Shown: in pieces, positions 20,780-60,222 of the stretch | Layout: each line of letters begins with the position of its first letter | Position numbering within the stretch: position 1 is the stretch's first letter | Assembly: GCA_001630475.1 (NCBI GenBank) | Contig: KV419432.1 | Location: forward strand, 62,001 to 126,000 | Direction: 5' to 3' | DNA from: Sistotremastrum niveocremeum HHB9708 | Taxonomy: Eukaryota > Basidiomycota > Agaricomycetes > Sistotremastrales > Sistotremastraceae | DNA length: 64,000 nucleotides | Notes under the pieces: generated by a model | The model's database searches: none | The model's input: the letters and a program-made list of their open reading frames with translations, nothing else | Told to the model about the DNA's origin: nothing | Made by a program: the position numbers and the translations under genes

Positions 20780-25903
<5,124 letters not shown>

Positions 25904-37547: not shown

Positions 37548-39369
37548 TCAGTAAAATTTCCCGTGCGAGCTCCGTTGTCCCAGCGTCAACAACGCCAAGA
37601 AATCAGCGACAATATCAGCGGCAGCGATGCCCGTGACCTCAGCTAAAAACGCAATAAGACCAATTGTACAACCATCATCATACGCGAACAGAAGAAAAGA
37701 CGTACCATGATCATAAGCAGGAGCCACTTCGACGAGATCAGCGCCACTGGACAATGATGGATGATGAGTTTGGTAGACGGCAGTGGTAGTGAATGTTGGA
37801 GAGATGACGTACACGATGTTGAGACCTGCAAGGCCTTTGATTATCCGTTTCACTTCTCTCGTTGTCCAGCCACCGGCCTCGGGGGTTCCCGCTAACGATG
37901 AATCGATCAGTAAACGGTCGAGATTAGAGTTCAATGCGGCGTACTTGCAGGTGCCATGCCCGGATCTAGAAGCGACCGATGTTAGACCGGAAGAACACGC
38001 GAAGAACAGTAGGATGCGGCGTACCTATGACATCAATATCGAGACTAGATTCCCGTCAGGTTAGACGTATGGCACGATAACTCTGTGTGACTTGAACGCA
38101 CCTGAGATAGATTGGGCCGTCTCCAACTCGATTGCGAATGCGTTCCACCACACCCAACGTTCCAATTTCATCGATGTCATCCTATGAGTTTATTCAGAGA
38201 AATAACCTCAGATCTGGGACACGTTAAGTAATACGCACGGTACTGATGAGCTCGAATCCAACGCTCGCATCGTGCTCCAAATCGACCGTTCCCTGTGAGG
38301 CGTGTCAAGATAATATGTCTGTTAAACACAACGAGACGTACGAGAAGTTTACAACGAATGCCAGCATGAATGCTCGTGTTCGTCAGCAATCCTTCGTTGT
38401 TGGCAAGCCAGAAGAATGTTCCGTGCGTCACTTGAGCTTGTGTAGATTCAGAGCCTGGATATCCGAGTGCGTTCCAGGTGTCGAGATGGGCTGCGAGAGG
38501 AAGATTGAGAGGAGGGTGGACATTCGTCGGAAGCCGTCATACCATCGTAATGGATAACACTGAAAAACGATCAGTTAGAAAGACGCGTCTGAGATGAACC
38601 GGTGGCTTACGATACAGGTCCATATACTTTATTCAAGGATCTCAGAATAGGCAGCACCTGTACAAACTATCAGCGAGAGAATTCAAGGTAAGACCAGGCC
38701 AACGACGTACAATAGTATGATCACCACCAAGGGTGACAATTCTCGGATGTTCCCTTCCATCCTTTGCAAGACTGGCAAGCTTAGACGGCTCACTATCACT
38801 CTCATTCCTCACAGGAACATATCGAGACAATAACGTCGAATAGGCCGTCTCCATCTGATCCACAGCCAGCGCATTATCAAACGGACTAACAGGAACCTTC
38901 ACCCCATCAGCACATCCCCTCCTTTATCGACAATAATGGCACAACTCACATCTCCACAATCCAAAATAGTCCGTCCACCATCCGTATACGGATTCCCACC
39001 CCAACTCAACGAATATCCCCAATCCACACTCTGCCTCCTACTCCCCTCCCGAATCGCATACGGTCCAAACCGCGCTCCAGGTCGATAAGAAGTAGCAGTA
39101 TCAAATGGCATACCCAGAATCGCAATATCGAAATTGTTCGCATCGGAGGCACTGAGTGAACGTGGATAGTCGAGACAGCGGGAGTAGGGGAGACGGGAGA
39201 ATGAGAGGGGGCCGGAGAATGATGTATCGGGTGTATTCCCGTATTTTGAGGTCCATTCTTCAATGGGACCAAAGGACTCTTGGTGTCCAGCATGGCCATG
39301 GGAATGGGCATGGACGAGTGAGATGCATGTCAATGCAACGAGCCCAGCGGCGGTCGTGCTTGAAATCAT
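37548..39369 (-). CDS. Secreted ureohydrolase (agmatinase/guanidinobutyrase-like), copy 1
   Basis: ATG at 39369 opens a signal peptide (MISSTTAAGLVALTCISLVH) followed by a His-rich stretch (AHSHGHAGH). Core motifs of the arginase/agmatinase fold are all present after splicing: LGMPFDTATSYRPGARFGP, LGGDHTIV, VIHYDAHLDTW (D-A-H-x-D), and SLDIDVIDPGMAPATGTPE, which together supply the binuclear manganese ligands. The end reads VEVAPAYDHAEVTGIAAADI, again family-typical, and the stop is at 37548. The enzyme should hydrolyse a guanidino compound to urea and an amine; the FGPYAIR region favours agmatinase/guanidinobutyrase over arginase. Extracellular or vacuolar location is inferred from the signal peptide. 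A paralogue lies at 46.5-48.4 kb on the same strand, beyond PEX1 and the reductase. Confidence 0.92.
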
Positions 39370-39688
39370 GATTCTGGTGACGATCTTGACTCCCCGAATG
39401 GACTCGAGGCTAGGATGTAGGATGGGCTAACCAAAGCCTGAGCCTGAGAGACTGACGAATTTATCTCCCATATGCGCAATCGTTATCTTTCCAGCCTAGG
39501 GAATTCGAAGGGACAGAAGCGGGCCGTTTCTTCATCCAGGCGCCCGCTCCATCAATCATAGTCGAATATTGAGCATCAATATTCCTTATCAGTGCTTCGT
39601 CGCCGCTAATAACGGGTACAATCTATGTAGAGTACATCTAATAATACACCCACAATTCCAGATACAGCACCATGCCATGAACAGAAGA
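39370..39688. other. Short intergenic region
   Basis: 319 bp between the PEX1 stop and the start of ureohydrolase copy 1; must hold the PEX1 3' end and the ureohydrolase promoter. Nothing else seen. Confidence 0.4.
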
Positions 39689-46468: not shown

Positions 46469-48362
46469 TTACTGAGTCATCAAAGCTAAGAAATCATGTA
46501 CGAGATCAGCAGCAACGATAGATGTTATATCTGCATGATCGTATGCGGGTGCTACTTCTACCAAATCCGCGCCTCTGTTTTATTCGTCAGTCAGTTATGT
46601 GCATGATGAGAGCGGAGAAGTCAAGTCAGGCGCAAAGAAGGAAGGGAGAGCAATGAGCAACCCGGGAGAAGACAGACGATGCAGAGAGAAGAAAGGCGAG
46701 AGAAAGGAGAAGAAAGGAGAAGGAAGATAGAAGAAAGAAAGGACATACACGATATTCAAACCCTTCAAACCCCTCAACGTCCTCTTAACCTCTCTCGTCG
46801 TCCATCCTCCCGCTTCAGGCGTGCCCGCTACACACATTGATCAGTACCTCACATACATTCCCTACGGAGGGAGGAGGGGAAGGACGTACTAGCTGGTGCG
46901 AGGCCCGGATCTTTATGGATCACAATATGTCAGACATGGTGAGTTGAGTTGGAGTTGGGAGGAGACTAACCGATAACGTCGATATCGACTCTATCATAAT
47001 CCACATGCATCAGTACGACACTGACGAATGAAGGGAGGAGGGGAGGGTACGTACGATACATAAACGGGTCTATCGCCCACTCTAGCTCGGAGCCTCTCAA
47101 CAATCCCGTCGACGCCTATATCATCTATAATTTCCTACCCACCCACCACATCACATCAGCCTAACCCTATATCAAAGAAGGAAGGGAGAGGGGGGACGTA
47201 CGGTAGGTAACAACTCAAATCCAACACTCTCATCATGTCTCAACGCATCAGGACCCTACCTCCCTTCAATTCCCCGATAATTACACCAAAAGAGGAGAGG
47301 ACGCACGGATAGTTTGCCCCGAATACCAGCATGTATACTCGTATTAGCAATCAACAATCCCTCCTCCTTCGCATGCAAGAAATAGCTTCCGTGAGTTATA
47401 ATTCCTTTTGGTGTACGGAGGGTCGCGGAGCCTGTGTCCATGTGTGCTATATTCCTCTATCAATAATGATTCGCAGAGGCGGGAAGGAGGGGGGCGTACA
47501 ATCGTAGTGGATCACTCTGGGGATCGGTTAGATTCGGTTGAGCAGCCTGGAAAAGTGGGGAGGGGACGTACGATACGGGTCCGTAGACTTTATACAAAGC
47601 TCTCAGAATTGGTAATACCTACACACCACACCAACACCATCAACGCCCATCCCCAGAAAAAGAAGATGAAGAAAGGGCTTACGATTGTATGATCGCCTCC
47701 GAGAGTGACGATTCTCGGATGGTCTTTCCCGTCTTTTGCGAATTTCGCAGATTTCGATATCGGTTTCGCTTCGACCCCTTCGAGTGTCTCAGAGGAAGGA
47801 GAGGAGGAAGAGTTTGATGAGAGGAGTGTAGGGCGGGATATAAGTGTTGTGTAGGCTGCTTCCATTTGATCTATAGCCAGCGCATTATCATACGGGCTCA
47901 CAGGGACCTGCAATCCGCCATCAAAACCTCCCCTCAACTCCAATAGGAAGAAAAAAAACTTACATCCCCACAATCAATAACCTCCAACCCCTGCTCATAA
48001 GGATTCATCCCCCAAAACGTAGTCCACCCATGCGTCGCCCCCATACGTCTACTCCCACTCCTAATCCCAAACGGACCAAATCTCGCTCCAGGCCTATACG
48101 ATACGCTCGTATCAAAAGGCATTCCCAGAATCGCTATGTCGAATAAGGTCGAAGGGGAGTCTAGGCATCGTGTTTGGGGGAGGTGGGAGAAGGAGAGGGG
48201 GCCGGAGAAGCCTATGTCTATTTGGGGACCGTATTTGGAGGTCCATTCTTCTTCTTCGACGGAGGAGGAGAAGGGGGTTTGAGTGGTGTGATCATGGGCG
48301 TGGGCGTGAGCGGTGATGGAGAGGATGGAGAGTAAGACGAATGAAGGGAGGAGACTGATCAT
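46469..48362 (-). CDS. Secreted ureohydrolase (agmatinase/guanidinobutyrase-like), copy 2
   Basis: ATG at 48362 opens a signal peptide (MISLLPSFVLLSILSITAHA) and a His-rich stretch (HAHAHDH). The motifs match copy 1: EEWTSKYGPQIDIGFSGPLS, LGMPFDTSVSYRPGARFGP, LGGDHTIV, VIHYDSHMDT (Ser replaces Ala in D-A-H-x-D, which the family allows), and SVDIDVIDPGLAPATGTPEA. The end reads VEVAPAYDHADIT and LVHDFLALMTQ, stop at 46469. All metal ligands are kept, so both copies are likely active. After the DxHxD motif the loop differs (TGSATLRTPKG here, TWNALGYPGSE in copy 1), which may mean a different substrate. It has more and longer introns than copy 1, several starting GTACGTCCCC. Confidence 0.9.
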
Positions 48363-49397
48363 CTTGAGACTTGAGCGACGTCTGACTCGGACGATCAAAA
48401 AGTCGCTGAGCTGCGCGATAGCACGCGTCTTTATACTCCCATCATACACGCAGTTCGTTATCAGCTACGCCCAGTCTTCTCTTCTTCAAACATCATGATT
48501 CATGATCGTTCGTTATCTGGGGTCCAATTCGTGCCTTATCTCTGCCAATTGGAAAGTCAATAAAGCCACGGGCATGAGAGAGCGGCTCTGACTTCGAGCA
48601 CAAGACTCATAACGGCTCAAGCGGGGCGCCTTCATCGGACAGATACTGAGATAGACAGAGATAGAGATAGCTTCAAATAGCTTCCAGTCCAGGCCACACG
48701 ATCGCGCGGAGAGATTTGCTCGAACAAGCCGAACCGGCACACGGATATGCCGAAGGTCTTCTATTCGTGAGAATCTTTCATTTGTACACTTTTGTATTCG
48801 TGAGAATCTAATACTGTACACTTTTCTCTGAACTTTCGATCAGAAATGCCGATATTTCCTCGATGGAGTTCATTTAGCAAGAATGCTATCGCTCATTAGA
48901 CTTTGCCGTTCTGCCAGGTGGAGGCAGTGCAAGTAGAGGAATTCACTCGGGACGCAATATCACACTGTCAATCATAACGCCAACACAATCAATATATATG
49001 CCAAAACCAAAGCCTAGAAATTCGATCTCGGCAAGTACATGATAACAACTACCATCCATCTCCATCAACGACAACAACATCACCGATACATGAGTAGAAC
49101 GAGAATAATAGCACGGCCGTGCTTTTAGTACAATAATATATCAAAAAGGGGGTTAAGCGAAAGTCGAAGGTAATAAGTTTAGTGATCAAAGGGGCCAAGC
49201 GTCACTCTTCCCTCTGACGAAGGAAGAGCGAGCGGCAGGATCGGAAGTAATGAGAATGAGAGTGAGGAGTCCTGAACGAGGTGGCCGACGGTGTATGATA
49301 AACGGTGCTCAGATAATGCTGATTCTACGCGAAAGAATGAGAGACGTTCGAAGGAAAAGAGGGAAGAGAGACGTACCAGCAGAGCATGTGAACGTGC
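48363..49397. other. Intergenic, with a short tandem repeat
   Basis: About 1 kb from the start of ureohydrolase copy 2 to the pheromone stop codon. It should contain the ureohydrolase promoter and the pheromone 3' UTR. A two-copy tandem repeat lies at 48762-48827; no gene is supported. Confidence 0.5.
48762..48827 (+). repeat. Two-copy tandem repeat, unit about 33 bp
   Basis: Both units begin TATTCGTGAGAATCT and end TGTACACTTTT, with a few differences in the middle (48762-48794 and 48795-48827). Confidence 0.8.
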
Positions 49398-49508
49398 TCA
49401 TGCGATGACGCAGTATCCAGAGTTACCACCACCATTGGTAGTCTCGAAGCTGACCGGGAGGTCAGTGGAGGTGGGCTTGGAAGATTCGAGAGTGGTGAAA
49501 GAATCCAT
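49398..49508 (-). CDS. Mating pheromone precursor (lipopeptide, CAAX box CVIA)
   Basis: A 36-codon frame from ATG at 49508 to TGA at 49398. It starts MDSFTTLESSKP and ends NSGYCVIA; the last four residues form a CAAX farnesylation box. Tremellomycete pheromones (for example Cryptococcus MF-alpha, which starts MDAFT and ends CVIA) have this same length, start and end. The product would be farnesylated, trimmed and carboxymethylated, exported by a Ste6-type transporter, and sensed by a Ste3-type receptor on the partner. A good TATA box lies 86-96 bp upstream, and the 5' leader is C/T-rich. It stands alone in an intergenic region between ureohydrolase copy 2 and GH71; no receptor or homeodomain gene is in the window, so linkage to a mating-type locus cannot be shown. 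Such genes are commonly missed because of size. Confidence 0.9.
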   Translation of the reverse strand: MDSFTTLESSKPTSTDLPVSFETTNGGGNSGYCVIA

Positions 49509-51063
49509 TTATATGTGAGGTGAGGTGTGAAGAGACGGTGGAGTAGCGAATGCGAATGGGCGATTTGCTGGAGAGAAGTGCGTGCATCGACCCTATATTT
49601 ATACAGTGGCACGAACAAGGGGCGTAAGCGTGTGTCATCCAACATTTAAGTTGGCCAATTGTGCGTCTGAATAAGGTGATTGAAAAGTGGCTCAGGGTCC
49701 GGAACGGAGAGGAGAAGAGTCGAGTCGAGTCGAGTCCTCTCATCGGAATGGTGCTTCGATTTGAGGCGAAAGAGGAGAAGAATAAGGAGGTCGAGGAGGA
49801 CAAGGTAAGTTTTGACAAGGGGGCAATGACACGAAGCAGATTTTACAATTGAATCAATATTGATGACTCGTACCTCAACGCATAAAATTAGAGCTGGCCT
49901 CCCTTCTTCTCCTGAACAGGCAAGAAACAGGGGATGCCATCGGATCCAGCAACTCGCAACAATAGAAGCAACTCGCCATTCATAGAAAACTTGGTCATAG
50001 GTGTGTTTCGGATTAGGAGACAATTAGAAACCAGACAATAAAGCAGGACTGGGCCAAAGTGTAGATCTCAAAATGAACAATAAAGACGGCCCAAGACACG
50101 TATTTTCCGAATGTCATAGGATGTCATCTGAGAAGGTCAACGCCGGCGTTCCGGACTCGCAGAGCTTTGTTCCTGGTCGACCTTGTTCTGCACTTCGCGA
50201 TGCTTTCGTAGAGCCCTGCGCTTGGTGTTTCAGAGTCATTCAGGAGCTTGGTCAGAACGTGGAAGACAAGGCGAACCAGGAAGATGGCTGTTCCGAACCG
50301 AAAATATTGCGATCGGAGCTCAAACAGGAACGTGTTCCCGATTTGGTTAGTCGCTCGGCGGGCCAGGAACTGTCACGCCGAAGGCCCACGGCGCGGAATT
50401 GCAGAGGCTCAGAGAGTGAAACCCACCAGAAACCCGCGAATAACACTGCTCAATCTCTTTGAAACATTATTAGAATATACTCACGCAAACGGTATATTTT
50501 TTCTGACCCGTGGGTCAATTGATATGAATTTACTCGGCAGTGTCACGTCGAGCACGGAAAAGACCGATTCATAGACGTTCTCTTCAGACTCTCGCGCCTT
50601 ACTCACAACCCCATTCGCCGATCAAACGAAAGCAGTCAAGTTAAGGGGAAACAAACATTCAATAACCTGTACTATACCAGTACCAGTCTACAAGTACACG
50701 TTAAGAGAAACTAGTAGTAAAAAGAGATAGTAAATAAGATTGTAGCAGACATGAACAAGGACGTAAGGTCTACAACAACTAAAACACTCACACTCAATGC
50801 AGTAAATGCAATACAGCGCAGCTATTATGCGATGGAAACAGAAAACGGAGACAAGACAGAACCAAGAAAAATAAAAATGGGAAGGATCCGGCCGTTCGTT
50901 AGGTATGTGCACATTGTCGCTGTTGTTTTACAGGTCCTGAATCCGAAGGAGCACCGCTGATTCGGAGTAGAGACGAAGAAAGAATGGCGACAAGAAGTGG
51001 TAATATGAACACGGTGAACGAAGGTGATATCGACGATGTCGATGAGTTTAGGAAGTAACCACT
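49509..51063. other. Pheromone promoter and further intergenic DNA
   Basis: About 1.55 kb. The right-hand part contains a plus-strand open frame (50073-50462, 129 residues) without a motif or splice support; I leave it uncalled. The rest is presumably the pheromone promoter and the GH71 3' end. Confidence 0.5.
49594..49604 (-). promoter_or_regulatory. TATA box of the pheromone gene
   Basis: Minus strand reads GTATAAATATA, about 86-96 bp before the ATG. Two ACAAGGGG strings on the plus strand (49615-49622 and 49815-49822, exactly 200 bp apart) resemble HMG-box pheromone-response elements; that link is inference. Confidence 0.6.
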
Positions 51064-52947
51064 TCACGGGGAGGCTACCACGTATGCGTTGAAGTTATAC
51101 GATGGAGGATTGGCGTTGAACACAAAGCTGTTCGCTCCCGTATCCGCGAAAGTATGAGATCCACGCGTGACGGTAGCGCGCATGGTATTTCCACCAACGA
51201 GAGGAACGCTGAGCTTAGAGACACCAGCGGGGACAGAGAAACTCTGCGAAGTAGTGGGTGAAGTGGTAATGGTGACGGTGGAGGGTGCAGAAGCGAGGAC
51301 GACCGCCCAAAGGGTATCAGACACGAGCTGGTAATTCGTCGGCCGGGCGACGGGGTCAGGGGAGTTCGCGTCACGGGGGTGAGGGCGGGCATAAAGGACA
51401 ACCTGGTCCTTCGAGATAGTAGGGTATACACCAGTCTTGAAGGCTTTTGCGTAATATGAAGTTATGGCCAACCAGCCTAACGAAACTAGTGAGCCCCTGG
51501 TTACAGTCTACGTAAGATGATTCAAGCTTACCAGTATGGTCAAAGCCATCGACCCAGGCCTGGCTGTTAGGTTGAGCGCCTTCGATAGGGCCAATATAGT
51601 GGCTTTCGCCGTAGTCGTTCCAGGTAATAATTTCGGCGATGGGGATCTGATTACGATTGGCGATGACAGTTTCCCATCGCTTGGCGTAGAGGTGGTCGTC
51701 AGCGAGGTAAATCCAGTTCTTGTTGTAAGTTTGGGGTGAGTAGTGAGTGAAGAACCAAGGTGAGACTGAGGAATCGTCAGCGGATGTTCAAAGTATGAAG
51801 AGAGTGCGAACGTACTAGCAGCGAGATATCCTTTGCCGGAGCCCTTGAGAGCGTTCAGGTACTGACTGTCCATCGAGCCATCTCCGACTTGGGATGCCAA
51901 GGACGTGCGTCCCGATTCGGAATTAGTGCTCAGGGACCCTGTCGTAAGTTGAGTCGGCCAACCGGAATTCCACTGAAAAAGAGACAATTTTGAGCAATCT
52001 GAGACAAAGAAGGCGAATCACGACTCACAGCGAAGGCGCCATCGGTGAACTGTTGGGAACCAAGAGTGGCAGGATCAACGAAGAAAGAAGGCCAGAATGA
52101 AACGCCGGGTCCTCCGTTAGTCAAAGGCTGGTAGAACTGGGTTTGCCACCCAGCGGTGTAGCTGCCTTGACCAAAGTTGCAGTTCTCGCCGGAGAAAGTC
52201 GAAGCGAAGGGCTTGGGGGTACCGGAGGACGAATATCTGAACTGGTTGGGGTGATTCGCGTAGGTGGTAATGTACGAGCGGAGGTTTGCTGCGTCGGCAG
52301 GAGATGAACAACCGAGGGAGCTATCGACGCGAAATACAGAGATGATCAGTTCACGAAAAGAAGTCAAGATGTGTCGGACTTACGTCATATCGAAGCTGAT
52401 GAATAGCTTGAATGGAGTTCCACTCTGGGCAGCAGCAGTATAGGCATCTGCTACGCGAGCAGACTGCCACGAATCAATCCCCATATTCAGAGCGAAGCCG
52501 TCGATACCCGCGGCATATGCTTTTTGGATGTCTGCTAGCCAGTCCGCGACCTTGTAGGGATACGTGTTTCCGACCTATATCCGAAGTGTCAAAAGATAAG
52601 TCTCGGAAAGCGTGAATGAGACATACCATGTGATGAGCGAACACATAGCGAGCGCTGGAGGCCGTTGGCACAGGGCTCGAGCTCGAGCTCGAGACCGACG
52701 AAGTAGTGGACGTCGTTTTGGTGGTTGAGGTGGTTGTTGGGGTGGTAGTGGTAACCTTGGAGGTGGAAGTAGTAGACGTGGTTGGGGTTGTGGATGTGGA
52801 TGGCTGAACTATAAGGTTCGGCTTATAGACAGTGCTATAGAGAGTGACAGTGTCGGTGACAGTGATGAGCGCAGGGTTGGGCACCGGTGCAGCTCTGACG
52901 AGAACCGTGACGATCGTGAAAAACAGGAATGCTGTGATTGAAAGCAT
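51064..52947 (-). CDS. Secreted GH71 alpha-1,3-glucanase (mutanase)
   Basis: Several exons, ATG at 52947 giving a signal peptide (MLSITAFLFFTIVTVLVRAA), stop at 51064. A Ser/Thr-rich linker of about 60 residues follows, then the GH71 catalytic domain: YVFAHHMVGNTYPYKVADWL, AGIDGFALNMGID, FKLFISFDMT, QFRYSSSGTPKPFASTFSGE, and IAEIITWNDYGESHYIGPIE, all family-typical. The C-terminal portion (WAVVLASAPSTVTITT onward) is a beta-rich domain commonly seen after it. The enzyme cleaves alpha-1,3-glucan of fungal walls, in wall remodelling, spore or cell separation, or attack on other fungi. The linker is at the N terminus, unlike typical C-terminal placement in some homologues. Introns were not all delimited. 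Confidence 0.92.
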
Positions 52948-56968: not shown

Positions 56969-57694
56969 CTACGCGCCGTGGAATTCGTTCCATACAGCAG
57001 GTTGACCTGGGATCTGGTTCCTGTTCAACATCGAAGTAAATACCGCCAGACGTTGTCGCAACTCTTCGATTTCGCGTTGAAGTTCTCTGTCGATATCATG
57101 TGAGTCGGTGGTTCCATTCATATCTTAGATTTCAGCGCACGCGATTTGTTCCCTATCTTGTCTTGATAGAACGAATGAGCACAGATTGTGTGAAAGCGAT
57201 CAGAGAGGGGATGCTTACCTCATTGCGTCCGCGGCTCGGAAGAGAAGATTTGCTTGGGTACTGGCCGTTCCTTCTACGTTGAAACCGCGCTCCTTCAGTT
57301 CATTCTTGATCTGCTGGAGAGAATCGGCCTTCCTATCCTTGCACCTCTTCTCTATCTCCAGTCGGCTGGTCCGCTTTTCATGATCTCTGTGTACCACGCG
57401 ATTTTCGGGGCCCCCATTCGAGATATAGTTTGATGGGGCGCTAGGCAGGATATGGCGTTCCATCGGACTTTCATATGAAGGGGCTGCATGCACTCATTTA
57501 GTCAGGATAAGTGAGTCGGCATTCTACGCACTGGCACCACTCATGCTCTGGAATGTCCTGAAGTTGAGGGGCGCACGGTCATCGGTCTGCAGTTCAGGTG
57601 TCTGCAGCCAGGGAGAGAGGGCCATCGATTGGGAATGACTGCTGCTACCTTGCACGAAACTCTGTTTACGTTGAGTCTCTCGAGATGGATACAT
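56969..57694 (-). CDS. bHLH-leucine-zipper-like protein, paralogue 2 of 3
   Basis: Four exons, complement of 57532-57694, 57219-57483, 57141-57161 and 56969-57086, sum to 567 nt, 188 residues. ATG at 57694 (MYPSRETQRKQSFVQGSSSH). A disordered N terminus leads to the basic helix (RTSRLEIEKRCKDRKADSLQ), loop (ERGFNVEGTAST), helix 2 (QANLLFRAADAMR) and zipper-like heptads (QDREQIAELQREIEELRQRL). The 21-nt exon 3 encodes QDREQIA and is essential for the heptad register. The three paralogues share CK(D/E)(R/K)K in helix 1 and A-N in helix 2. It lies tail-to-head with paralogue 3 on the same strand, 1.7 kb apart, suggesting local duplication. Probably nuclear; target genes unknown. Confidence 0.75.
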
Positions 57695-59390: not shown

Positions 59391-60222
59391 TTAAAACAGA
59401 GATTGAGTTGGCAAGCTGCCAAATTGTTCGTTCGACATCGCAGGCCAAGCTTGAGGTGATGCAAAGTTTCGCCGATCGGTAGCTCGACCTCCCATGAGCT
59501 GAATTTCGGCACGTAAAACTCTGATTTCATCCTGCAGCGCCCTATTGACTGATGATCAACACCATGAGGTATACAGGTACTGTTTCACATACCTCAGCTG
59601 CCCTCTTTCCGATCTATGGATATGGGTTTGGTATTAGTATCAGGAAGAGCTCAAGAGAACAGCAAGAGGGACGCACTTCATCGTTTCGGCTGCTTTGAAA
59701 AGTAGATTGGCTTGGGTACCATCAGTTCTGTGGACGGGTTGCCCTCTTAGCTTCATCTCTTCTCGAATCTTATCCAATGATTCTTGTTTCCTTTCCTTGC
59801 ACCTACGTTCTACTTCGGTGCGCCCACGTCGCTTGCTGCCGTCGAGAGAGGGATTGAAGTAGGTGTTTGAGCTTGCTTCGAGAACAGAGTTCGCAGGACC
59901 ACTCGAACCGTACGGATTATATTCGCCTGAAAGTGTGTGGTGAGTTACAAGGATGATAGATTGACGGTCGTCATACCGTCATCAGCGAGTGAGCTCAAGG
60001 GTGAATACGTAGGAGAGTATGGTGGCAGATTGTCGGGCTGGGTGATTGTGAGCTGTGGGCCCAAATTGTGGGTTGGATAAGCAGCATTGTTGGATGGAAT
60101 AGCATGAGAACTTCGAGAAGGATTGGTGTTGAAAGGCATGGGTCGACGTTGAGACTGAACTCTGCCTTTATCTATGCGTCAGACAGTTATAGCTGGAGAT
60201 AGCAGGTGACGTACTATTCATG
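59391..60222 (-). CDS. bHLH-leucine-zipper-like protein, paralogue 3 of 3
   Basis: Five exons, complement of 60216-60222, 59977-60171, 59677-59926, 59593-59613 and 59391-59541, sum to 624 nt, 207 residues. The first exon is only 7 nt (ATGAATA), giving MNNKGRVQ; a start at 60139 (MPFNTNPSRSSH) is the simpler alternative. Residues to about 85 are Pro/Ser/Asn-rich. The conserved part reads KRRGRTEVERRCKERKQESL, loop (RGQPVHRTDGT), helix 2 (QANLLFKAAETMK), then SERGQLRALQDEIRVLRAEI. The 21-nt exon 4 encodes SERGQLR, matching the same-sized exons in the other two paralogues in position and phase. Longest and most basic of the three. Confidence 0.75.

Follow-up and report, generated by a model that had tools for sequence, protein, structure and literature searches.

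What does a 36-codon frame that ends in the CAAX box CVIA encode, and does it belong to a mating-type locus or to a set of pheromone-like genes scattered over the genome? The frame, denoted ph1, is located in the window, that is, the entire analysed stretch of 64 kb (C39:62001-126000 in an assembly of 34.7 Mb and 111 contigs), 111 kb from one end of the 339-kb contig C39. The preliminary description of this DNA reported the frame without naming its strand and took it for a CAAX pheromone precursor of tremellomycete type, either a dispersed copy or the edge of a mating-type locus.

The ph1 gene and its surroundings

The frame was confirmed on the minus strand (49508-49398). Its 36-aa product, MDSFTTLESSKPTSTDLPVSFETTNGGGNSGYCVIA, conforms to the short MD.F...CAAX plan, with the start MDSF and the CVIA end directly followed by a stop. 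The gene and the elements around it are as follows.

49398-49508, minus strand: ph1, pheromone-like precursor gene, ATG at 49508, TGA at 49400-49398; supported by PF08015 (28.1 bits), paralogues and silent-only C-terminal divergence from ph2
49398-49445, minus strand: putative mature peptide and CVIA CAAX box, 15 codons ETTNGGGNSGYCVIA plus stop; all 15 residues are the same in ph2 (contig C10)
49594-49603, minus strand: TATA box TATAAATATA, beginning 95 bp upstream of the ph1 ATG
49325-49376, minus strand: putative 3'UTR intron GTACGT...TAG of 52 nt (a 58-nt alternative fits too), predicted to begin 22 nt past the ph1 stop
49615-49622, plus strand: ACAAGGGG string, function not supported, absent from the seven other genes
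49815-49822, plus strand: ACAAGGGG string, function not supported, absent from the seven other genes

The ph1 product matches the Pfam Pheromone model PF08015 with 28.1 bits, above the curated cut-off of 22 (E = 4.4e-6), and two paralogues from the same genome match the ph1 product at E = 3.1e-7 and 5.1e-4, in support of the assignment to CAAX pheromone-type precursors. In the genome-wide search with PF08015, the ph1 stretch scores 17.8 bits, or 23.5 bits with its neighbours in frame. Being short and overlapped by two longer minus-strand frames, ph1 might appear to be a chance open frame. The probability of this is negligible in view of the paralogues, the Pfam score, the silent-only changes described below and the rarity of such frames: apart from ph1, no ATG frame of 28-75 aa in the window has a C-[VIMTA]-[VIM]-[AST]-stop end, and random sequences of 64 kb that match the window in dinucleotide frequencies contain, on average, 0.1 frames of this kind, with an MD.F start in 0 of 150. 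The ph1 frame is a real gene, and its product is very probably a small signalling peptide with a lipid tail, made by a mushroom-type fungus.

A single glutamate is located 11 residues before the CAAX cysteine, and there is no charged pair of the ER, EE or DR type; the available text of PMC4938666 describes a glutamate at about this distance (10 aa upstream) as typical. By analogy with the a-factor-type pathway, the cysteine would be farnesylated, VIA would be clipped off and the new end then methylated, and the N-terminal part of the precursor would be removed near this glutamate. The mature product is probably farnesylated ETTNGGGNSGYC, with a predicted cleavage site; such a lipopeptide would be exported and act on a STE3-type receptor.

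The nearest Pfam-matched frames on the two sides of ph1 encode an arginase-family protein (47937-48464, minus strand) and a GH71 protein (51067-51507, minus strand). Between these, the Pfam scan gave no match for the frames 48516-48839, 49325-49645 and 49462-49743 (all minus strand) and 50028-50459 (plus strand), which are 93-144 aa long and of which two overlap ph1, nor for one short plus-strand frame. To the extent of these scans, the earlier characterization of this intergenic region as otherwise empty is borne out, with no other Pfam-matched frame found there.

Lineage of the host

The arrangement of the homeodomain (HD) locus bears on the identity of the host. The HD pair (C14:511.9-515.7 kb) lies, within about 13 kb, between a Peptidase_M3 gene (mitochondrial intermediate peptidase, MIP; L064:5003-6428) and a 901-codon open frame (L065:5497-8199) that has no match in Pfam and weakly matches glycogenin in PDB (56 residues, E = 2.3e-4). 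MIP1 and GLGEN (glycogenin) are named as MATA-region genes of the Agaricomycete Trichaptum in the available part of PMC8970355, and MIP is said to adjoin HD in most of the mushrooms covered by the accessible text of PMC8686365; the HD-associated genes given for Cryptococcus in the portion of PMC12510652 at hand are RPL22, CAP1 and SPO14. Comparison with these published arrangements indicates that the host is, in all likelihood, an Agaricomycete, and the tremellomycete attribution of the peptide is probably wrong. A hydrophobin search of the genome gave no match, as did its control, which counts at most mildly against this assignment. A 5.8S rRNA search likewise found no match, and PDB searches with two frames of the window were uninformative about the lineage. 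In addition to the HD pair on C14, the homeodomain search found a further strong match on C69 and a weak one on C12, and there is one STE12 gene (C8); this complement fits a haploid assembly.

A dispersed family of pheromone-type genes

Genome-wide searches revealed at least seven further pheromone-type genes, bringing the total to at least eight, with precursors of 32-47 aa.

ph2, C10:727921-728058, plus strand: MDAFALLFTPSVSTSNASSTVEDLELPVNAETTNGGGNSGYCVIA; paralogue by sequence, passes the Pfam cut-off
ph3, C49:88555-88653, minus strand: MDIFTTLKSSKPPSSDAPDGGGGQATGYCVIA; paralogue by sequence, 15.6 bits, under the Pfam cut-off
ph4, C35:24890-24994, plus strand: MDELVTLSLSQDPEDFGPVDWDAYHNPWGWCVVA; no Pfam match; precursor plan, intron-like element, adjoining receptor
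ph5, C49:100833-100946, plus strand: MDEFTVPKALGSASEEAELKLEVSHFNGAGATGCVIA; no Pfam match; precursor plan, intron-like element
ph6, C49:109462-109563, plus strand: MDAFSLLKIPSSPSDEAGVPVSHNAPVGYCVIA; no Pfam match; precursor plan, intron-like element
ph7, C10:654303-654446, minus strand: MDAFTLISTVTATVAAALPLSQSHSEELALPREEETKQAANGYCVIA; 20.0 bits, under the Pfam cut-off
ph8, C54:140207-140347, minus strand: MDFLSTAFTFTFSSGASSSSDNTSPESELPKDYETRQAANGYCVIS; 18.1 bits, under the Pfam cut-off

Only ph1 and ph2 exceed the Pfam cut-off. The genes were collected by searching with proteins, the Pfam model and short patterns and by scanning fetched stretches, and eight is a lower bound, as CVIA/CVVA and G-aromatic-C ends were favoured and other CAAX ends were sought in the fetched stretches only. 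The predicted peptide ends are NGGGNSGYC in both ph1 and ph2 and GGGGQATGYC in ph3.

The pattern C-V-[IV]-A produced 35 matches (29 for the control pattern), of which 26 are stop-ended; these comprise three known genes, three new pheromone-type genes and 20 frames that were rejected because no ATG-Asp start is present in the approximately 200 bases upstream. With the pattern G-[FYWLC]-CaaX-stop, there were 10 matches (6 for the control pattern), namely seven known genes, one match without a stop and two that were rejected on reading. A PF08015 match on C57, under the cut-off at 19.9 bits and inside a 261-aa frame, was also discarded; among the ATG frames of 20-150 aa in this stretch that end in C-x-x-x, none is of the pheromone type. 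Segmental duplication was rejected as the origin of the dispersed copies: comparison of the window with the 10-kb surroundings of ph2 and ph3 revealed no protein similarity at 1e-6.

Selection on the C-terminal peptide

Over their last 15 codons, ph1 and ph2 have identical residues and differ by eight nucleotides in six codons, all the changes being silent; when eight random changes were simulated in those codons, all residues were kept in 0 of 200,000 trials. Between ph7 and ph8, 10 nucleotide differences in 14 codons result in three residue differences, a number as low as that being reached in 560 of 200,000 trials. In both pairs, the N-terminal parts appear, by eye, much more divergent. The start of ph1 resembles that of ph3 (identity at 12 of 16 residues, with eight nucleotide differences in 48), that is, ph1 has its start in common with ph3 and its end with ph2. 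The silent-only end is what selection on the mature C-terminal peptide would predict, which is a strong argument against a chance frame; the ph1/ph2 divergence already contradicts that explanation by itself.

The same comparison bears on the proposal that ph1 is a pseudogene or a relic of a pheromone duplication, with which the dispersal of the copies and the absence of protein similarity in their flanks would be compatible. This proposal has a low probability, given that the ph1 frame is intact, its C-terminal differences from ph2 are exclusively silent, and the TATA box and the intron-like element are preserved.

A shared gene plan

The clean TATA box reported upstream of ph1 was confirmed, and the motif TATAWA/TATAAG is found between -147 and -85 from the ATG in all eight pheromone-type genes. 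Within -140 to -85, it is present in seven of the eight, ph4 (-147) being just outside, and the chance of such an occurrence is 0.031 per random stretch.

The two ACAAGGGG strings upstream of ph1 had been interpreted as resembling pheromone-response sites of the HMG type. Their positions, 49615 and 49815, are right, and two ACAARGGG per 350 bp is a rare arrangement (0.00014 of 58,079 random stretches, a pool that includes the ph1 locus itself), but none of the seven other pheromone-type genes carries ACAARGGG within 350 bp upstream, so that ACAAGGGG was rejected as a common response element and the HMG-type interpretation is unsupported. A 52-bp upstream block with 90% identity is common to ph5 and ph6 (C49; L041/L068 and L042/L067), the peptides of which are strongly different; the promoters of these two genes seem to be related, with the ligand diverging.

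All eight genes also have GTRNGY no more than 50 nt after the stop, fitting an intron of 51-60 nt that ends in YAG and contains a branch-like YTNAY. In a background test that allowed 45-65 nt, and in which the pool of short frames and random places included ph1-ph4 themselves, the pattern was found at 4.7% of random places (38,794 sampled) and after 69 of 1,436 random short frames (4.8%). The pattern was noticed in ph1-ph4, the flanks of ph5-ph8 were then fetched, and the limits were fixed after all eight genes had been seen, so the eight of eight is not a strict test. Altogether, the eight genes appear to have a common plan that consists of a TATA box, a short frame and a predicted intron-like stretch past the stop.

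A CAAX box by itself is no proof of secretion or receptor binding, and ph1 might accordingly be viewed as a prenylated small protein other than a pheromone. Such a function is very improbable considering the match to the Pfam Pheromone model, the short length of the precursors throughout the eight genes, and the gene plan, which is the same as that of ph4, the gene adjoining a receptor.

Receptors and the mating-type question

The search of the genome for STE3 receptors (PF02076, E up to 10) gave 30 exon-level matches, all of which fall into four clusters on C35 and five on C13. By our own grouping, which was made from exon-level matches rather than full gene models, these represent about nine receptor-like genes; several pieces contain stops, which may be introns or damage. 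No STE3 match was found at this threshold on C39, C10, C49 or C54, and seven genes, including ph1, have no contig in common with any STE3 match, linkage being read within contigs, any of which (C39, C10, C49, C54) could share chromosomes with C35 or C13. The genome searches also bear out the earlier statement that the window contains no STE3, STE12 or homeodomain match.

The only pheromone-type gene next to a receptor is ph4, which has a CVVA end and a peptide unlike that of ph1 and lies 0.7 kb from the first STE3 match at C35:25.7 kb. A cassette with a STE3 gene, as expected of a MAT-B pheromone precursor, is thus seen for ph4 on C35 and not for ph1. No other CAAX frame starting with MD was found in the 180 kb scanned around the receptor clusters, that is, C35:1-100 kb (almost entirely N at 10-20 kb), C13:515-535 kb and C13:580-640 kb.

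Several aspects of the receptor contigs are worth recording. On C13 (L032, L035-L036), there are five STE3-like genes, at 527.5, 610.6, 612.7, 614.8 and 625.6 kb, four of which form a tandem array on one strand; no pheromone-type frame was found beside this array in the scanned C13 stretches. C35 looks like a rearranged receptor locus with N gaps: it contains a pair of STE3-like stretches in opposite orientation (L021, 8.0-9.8 kb, and L028, 74.6-76.5 kb) that are approximately 76-94% alike in most aligned pieces, and a frame near this pair recurs three times on the contig (42-44% alike).

According to one alternative, ph1 marks the edge of the B (P/R) locus as a mating-type pheromone, and assembly breaks hide its link to a receptor. 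This alternative draws on the pheromone-type nature of ph1 and on the N stretches in both receptor contigs, where the assembly is imperfect. It is nevertheless improbable: there is no STE3 match on the 339-kb C39, with ph1 lying 111 kb from one end of the contig; a pheromone of another kind already adjoins a STE3 match; and the same C-terminal peptide is encoded by ph1 and ph2 on different contigs, which is ill-suited to an allele-specific determinant. The location of all 30 STE3 matches on C35 and C13 speaks against the edge of a mating-type locus, and the other option raised at the outset, a dispersed pheromone copy, fits a contig without a STE3 match. The likely explanation, then, is that ph1 is one of several receptor-unlinked, pheromone-like lipopeptide genes of the kind described in other mushrooms.

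Comparison with known pheromone systems

The closest counterparts are the four 'pheromone-like' precursor genes of Agaricus bisporus (44-54 aa), with three on chromosome 1, divided between the two sides of the centromere, and the fourth on chromosome 2; none of the four is linked to the P/R-orthologous receptor, and at least three are expressed and have a 3'UTR intron (PMC8305134, section 3.5). Related motifs have been reported in Coprinopsis cinerea (GGGSGNGAYC) and Laccaria bicolor (GGGSGNNAYC) (PMC8305134). Similarly to the A. bisporus genes, ph1 has an MD[SA]F start, a CAAX end, several similar copies, a G-rich predicted mature end in -YC (NGGGNSGYC compared with the consensus GGGSGNGAYC/GGGSGNNAYC, by eye and with gaps), no linkage to a receptor on the same contig and a 3'UTR intron, which in ph1 is a prediction. 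It differs in its length (36 versus 44-54 aa), in the end -SGYC instead of -NGAYC/-NNAYC and in having no clear charged dipeptide. In the features tested, ph1 fits as a further member of this scattered, G-rich 'pheromone-like' kind of mushroom genes. Of six strings taken from ph1-ph4, none was retrieved from a pheromone paper among those searched, and only NSGYC was retrieved at all, from seven papers with non-pheromone titles; the earlier suggestion that the mature peptide may be new is compatible with this as regards the strings searched, but the G-rich -YC type as such is already known (PMC8305134).

The available text of PMC4101180 describes seven potential precursors of 39-65 aa in Pycnoporus cinnabarinus, three very distinct ones (mating-type-like) and four that are more alike, and a similar two-class split is apparent in the present genome. 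The precursor plan of ph1, with its MD start and CAAX end, resembles that of the Agaricomycete MAT-B (P/R) precursors, as far as these are covered in the accessible parts of PMC8970355, PMC5473757 and PMC5100862; the latter adjoin STE3, unlike ph1, and ph4 on C35 fits them. In Cryptococcus depauperatus, the pheromone gene is also apart from the receptor and its precursor is 37 aa long, but, according to the available portion of PMC9296135, it is a single copy in a homothallic tremellomycete, whereas ph1 is one of at least eight genes in a probable Agaricomycete. Tremellomycete strains have one pheromone gene (Kwoniella, Filobasidium), two (Cystofilobasidium) or two to four (Cryptococcus) in the available texts of PMC12510652, PMC9210288, PMC8545103 and PMC9296135.

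A possible role outside mating-type determination

Without linkage to a receptor, ph1 should occur in nuclei of all mating types and is unlikely to define mating type; a signal carried by all nuclei is its most likely role. In such a capacity, ph1 would not determine mating type but provide a self signal or a more general one, with fusion, nuclear migration and fruiting as examples of the processes that it might serve. A more extensive scenario, which is doubtful at this point, is that the seven dispersed lipopeptide genes form a second, receptor-unlinked pheromone set, with several peptide families and selected mature peptides, that is read by the STE3-like receptors of the C13 array, beside which no pheromone gene was found, and that conveys to every mating type a signal of self or of development.

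The set that includes ph1 bears on the job of the non-mating-type pheromone system of mushrooms; the role of non-mating receptors 'will deserve further investigation', in the words of the available text of PMC8970355. To the extent that their accessible parts describe the procedure, pheromone genes were sought only near STE3 in PMC8970355, PMC4938666, PMC12387193, PMC13085929 and PMC5100862, and distant hits were discarded as false positives in the first of these; a whole-genome tblastn search for pheromone genes was performed in PMC8305134. For the genome analysed here, the ligand genes (at least eight) and the receptor genes (about nine) can be listed concretely. That two of the ligand genes have diverged by silent changes alone argues that the scattered copies work, and ligand-receptor pairing would be directly testable.

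Other genes of the window

The arginase-family frame beside ph1 belongs to a tandem pair on the minus strand (37551-39426 and 46598-48464), the two members of which are approximately 53% alike in most pieces. An AROM-type gene (20783-25234, minus strand) contains recognizable DHQ synthase, EPSP synthase, dehydroquinase and shikimate dehydrogenase domains. Two related short frames on the minus strand (57218-57493 and 59643-59978), for which the Pfam scan gave no match, represent a family that recurs on C13 (L032:7204-7755).
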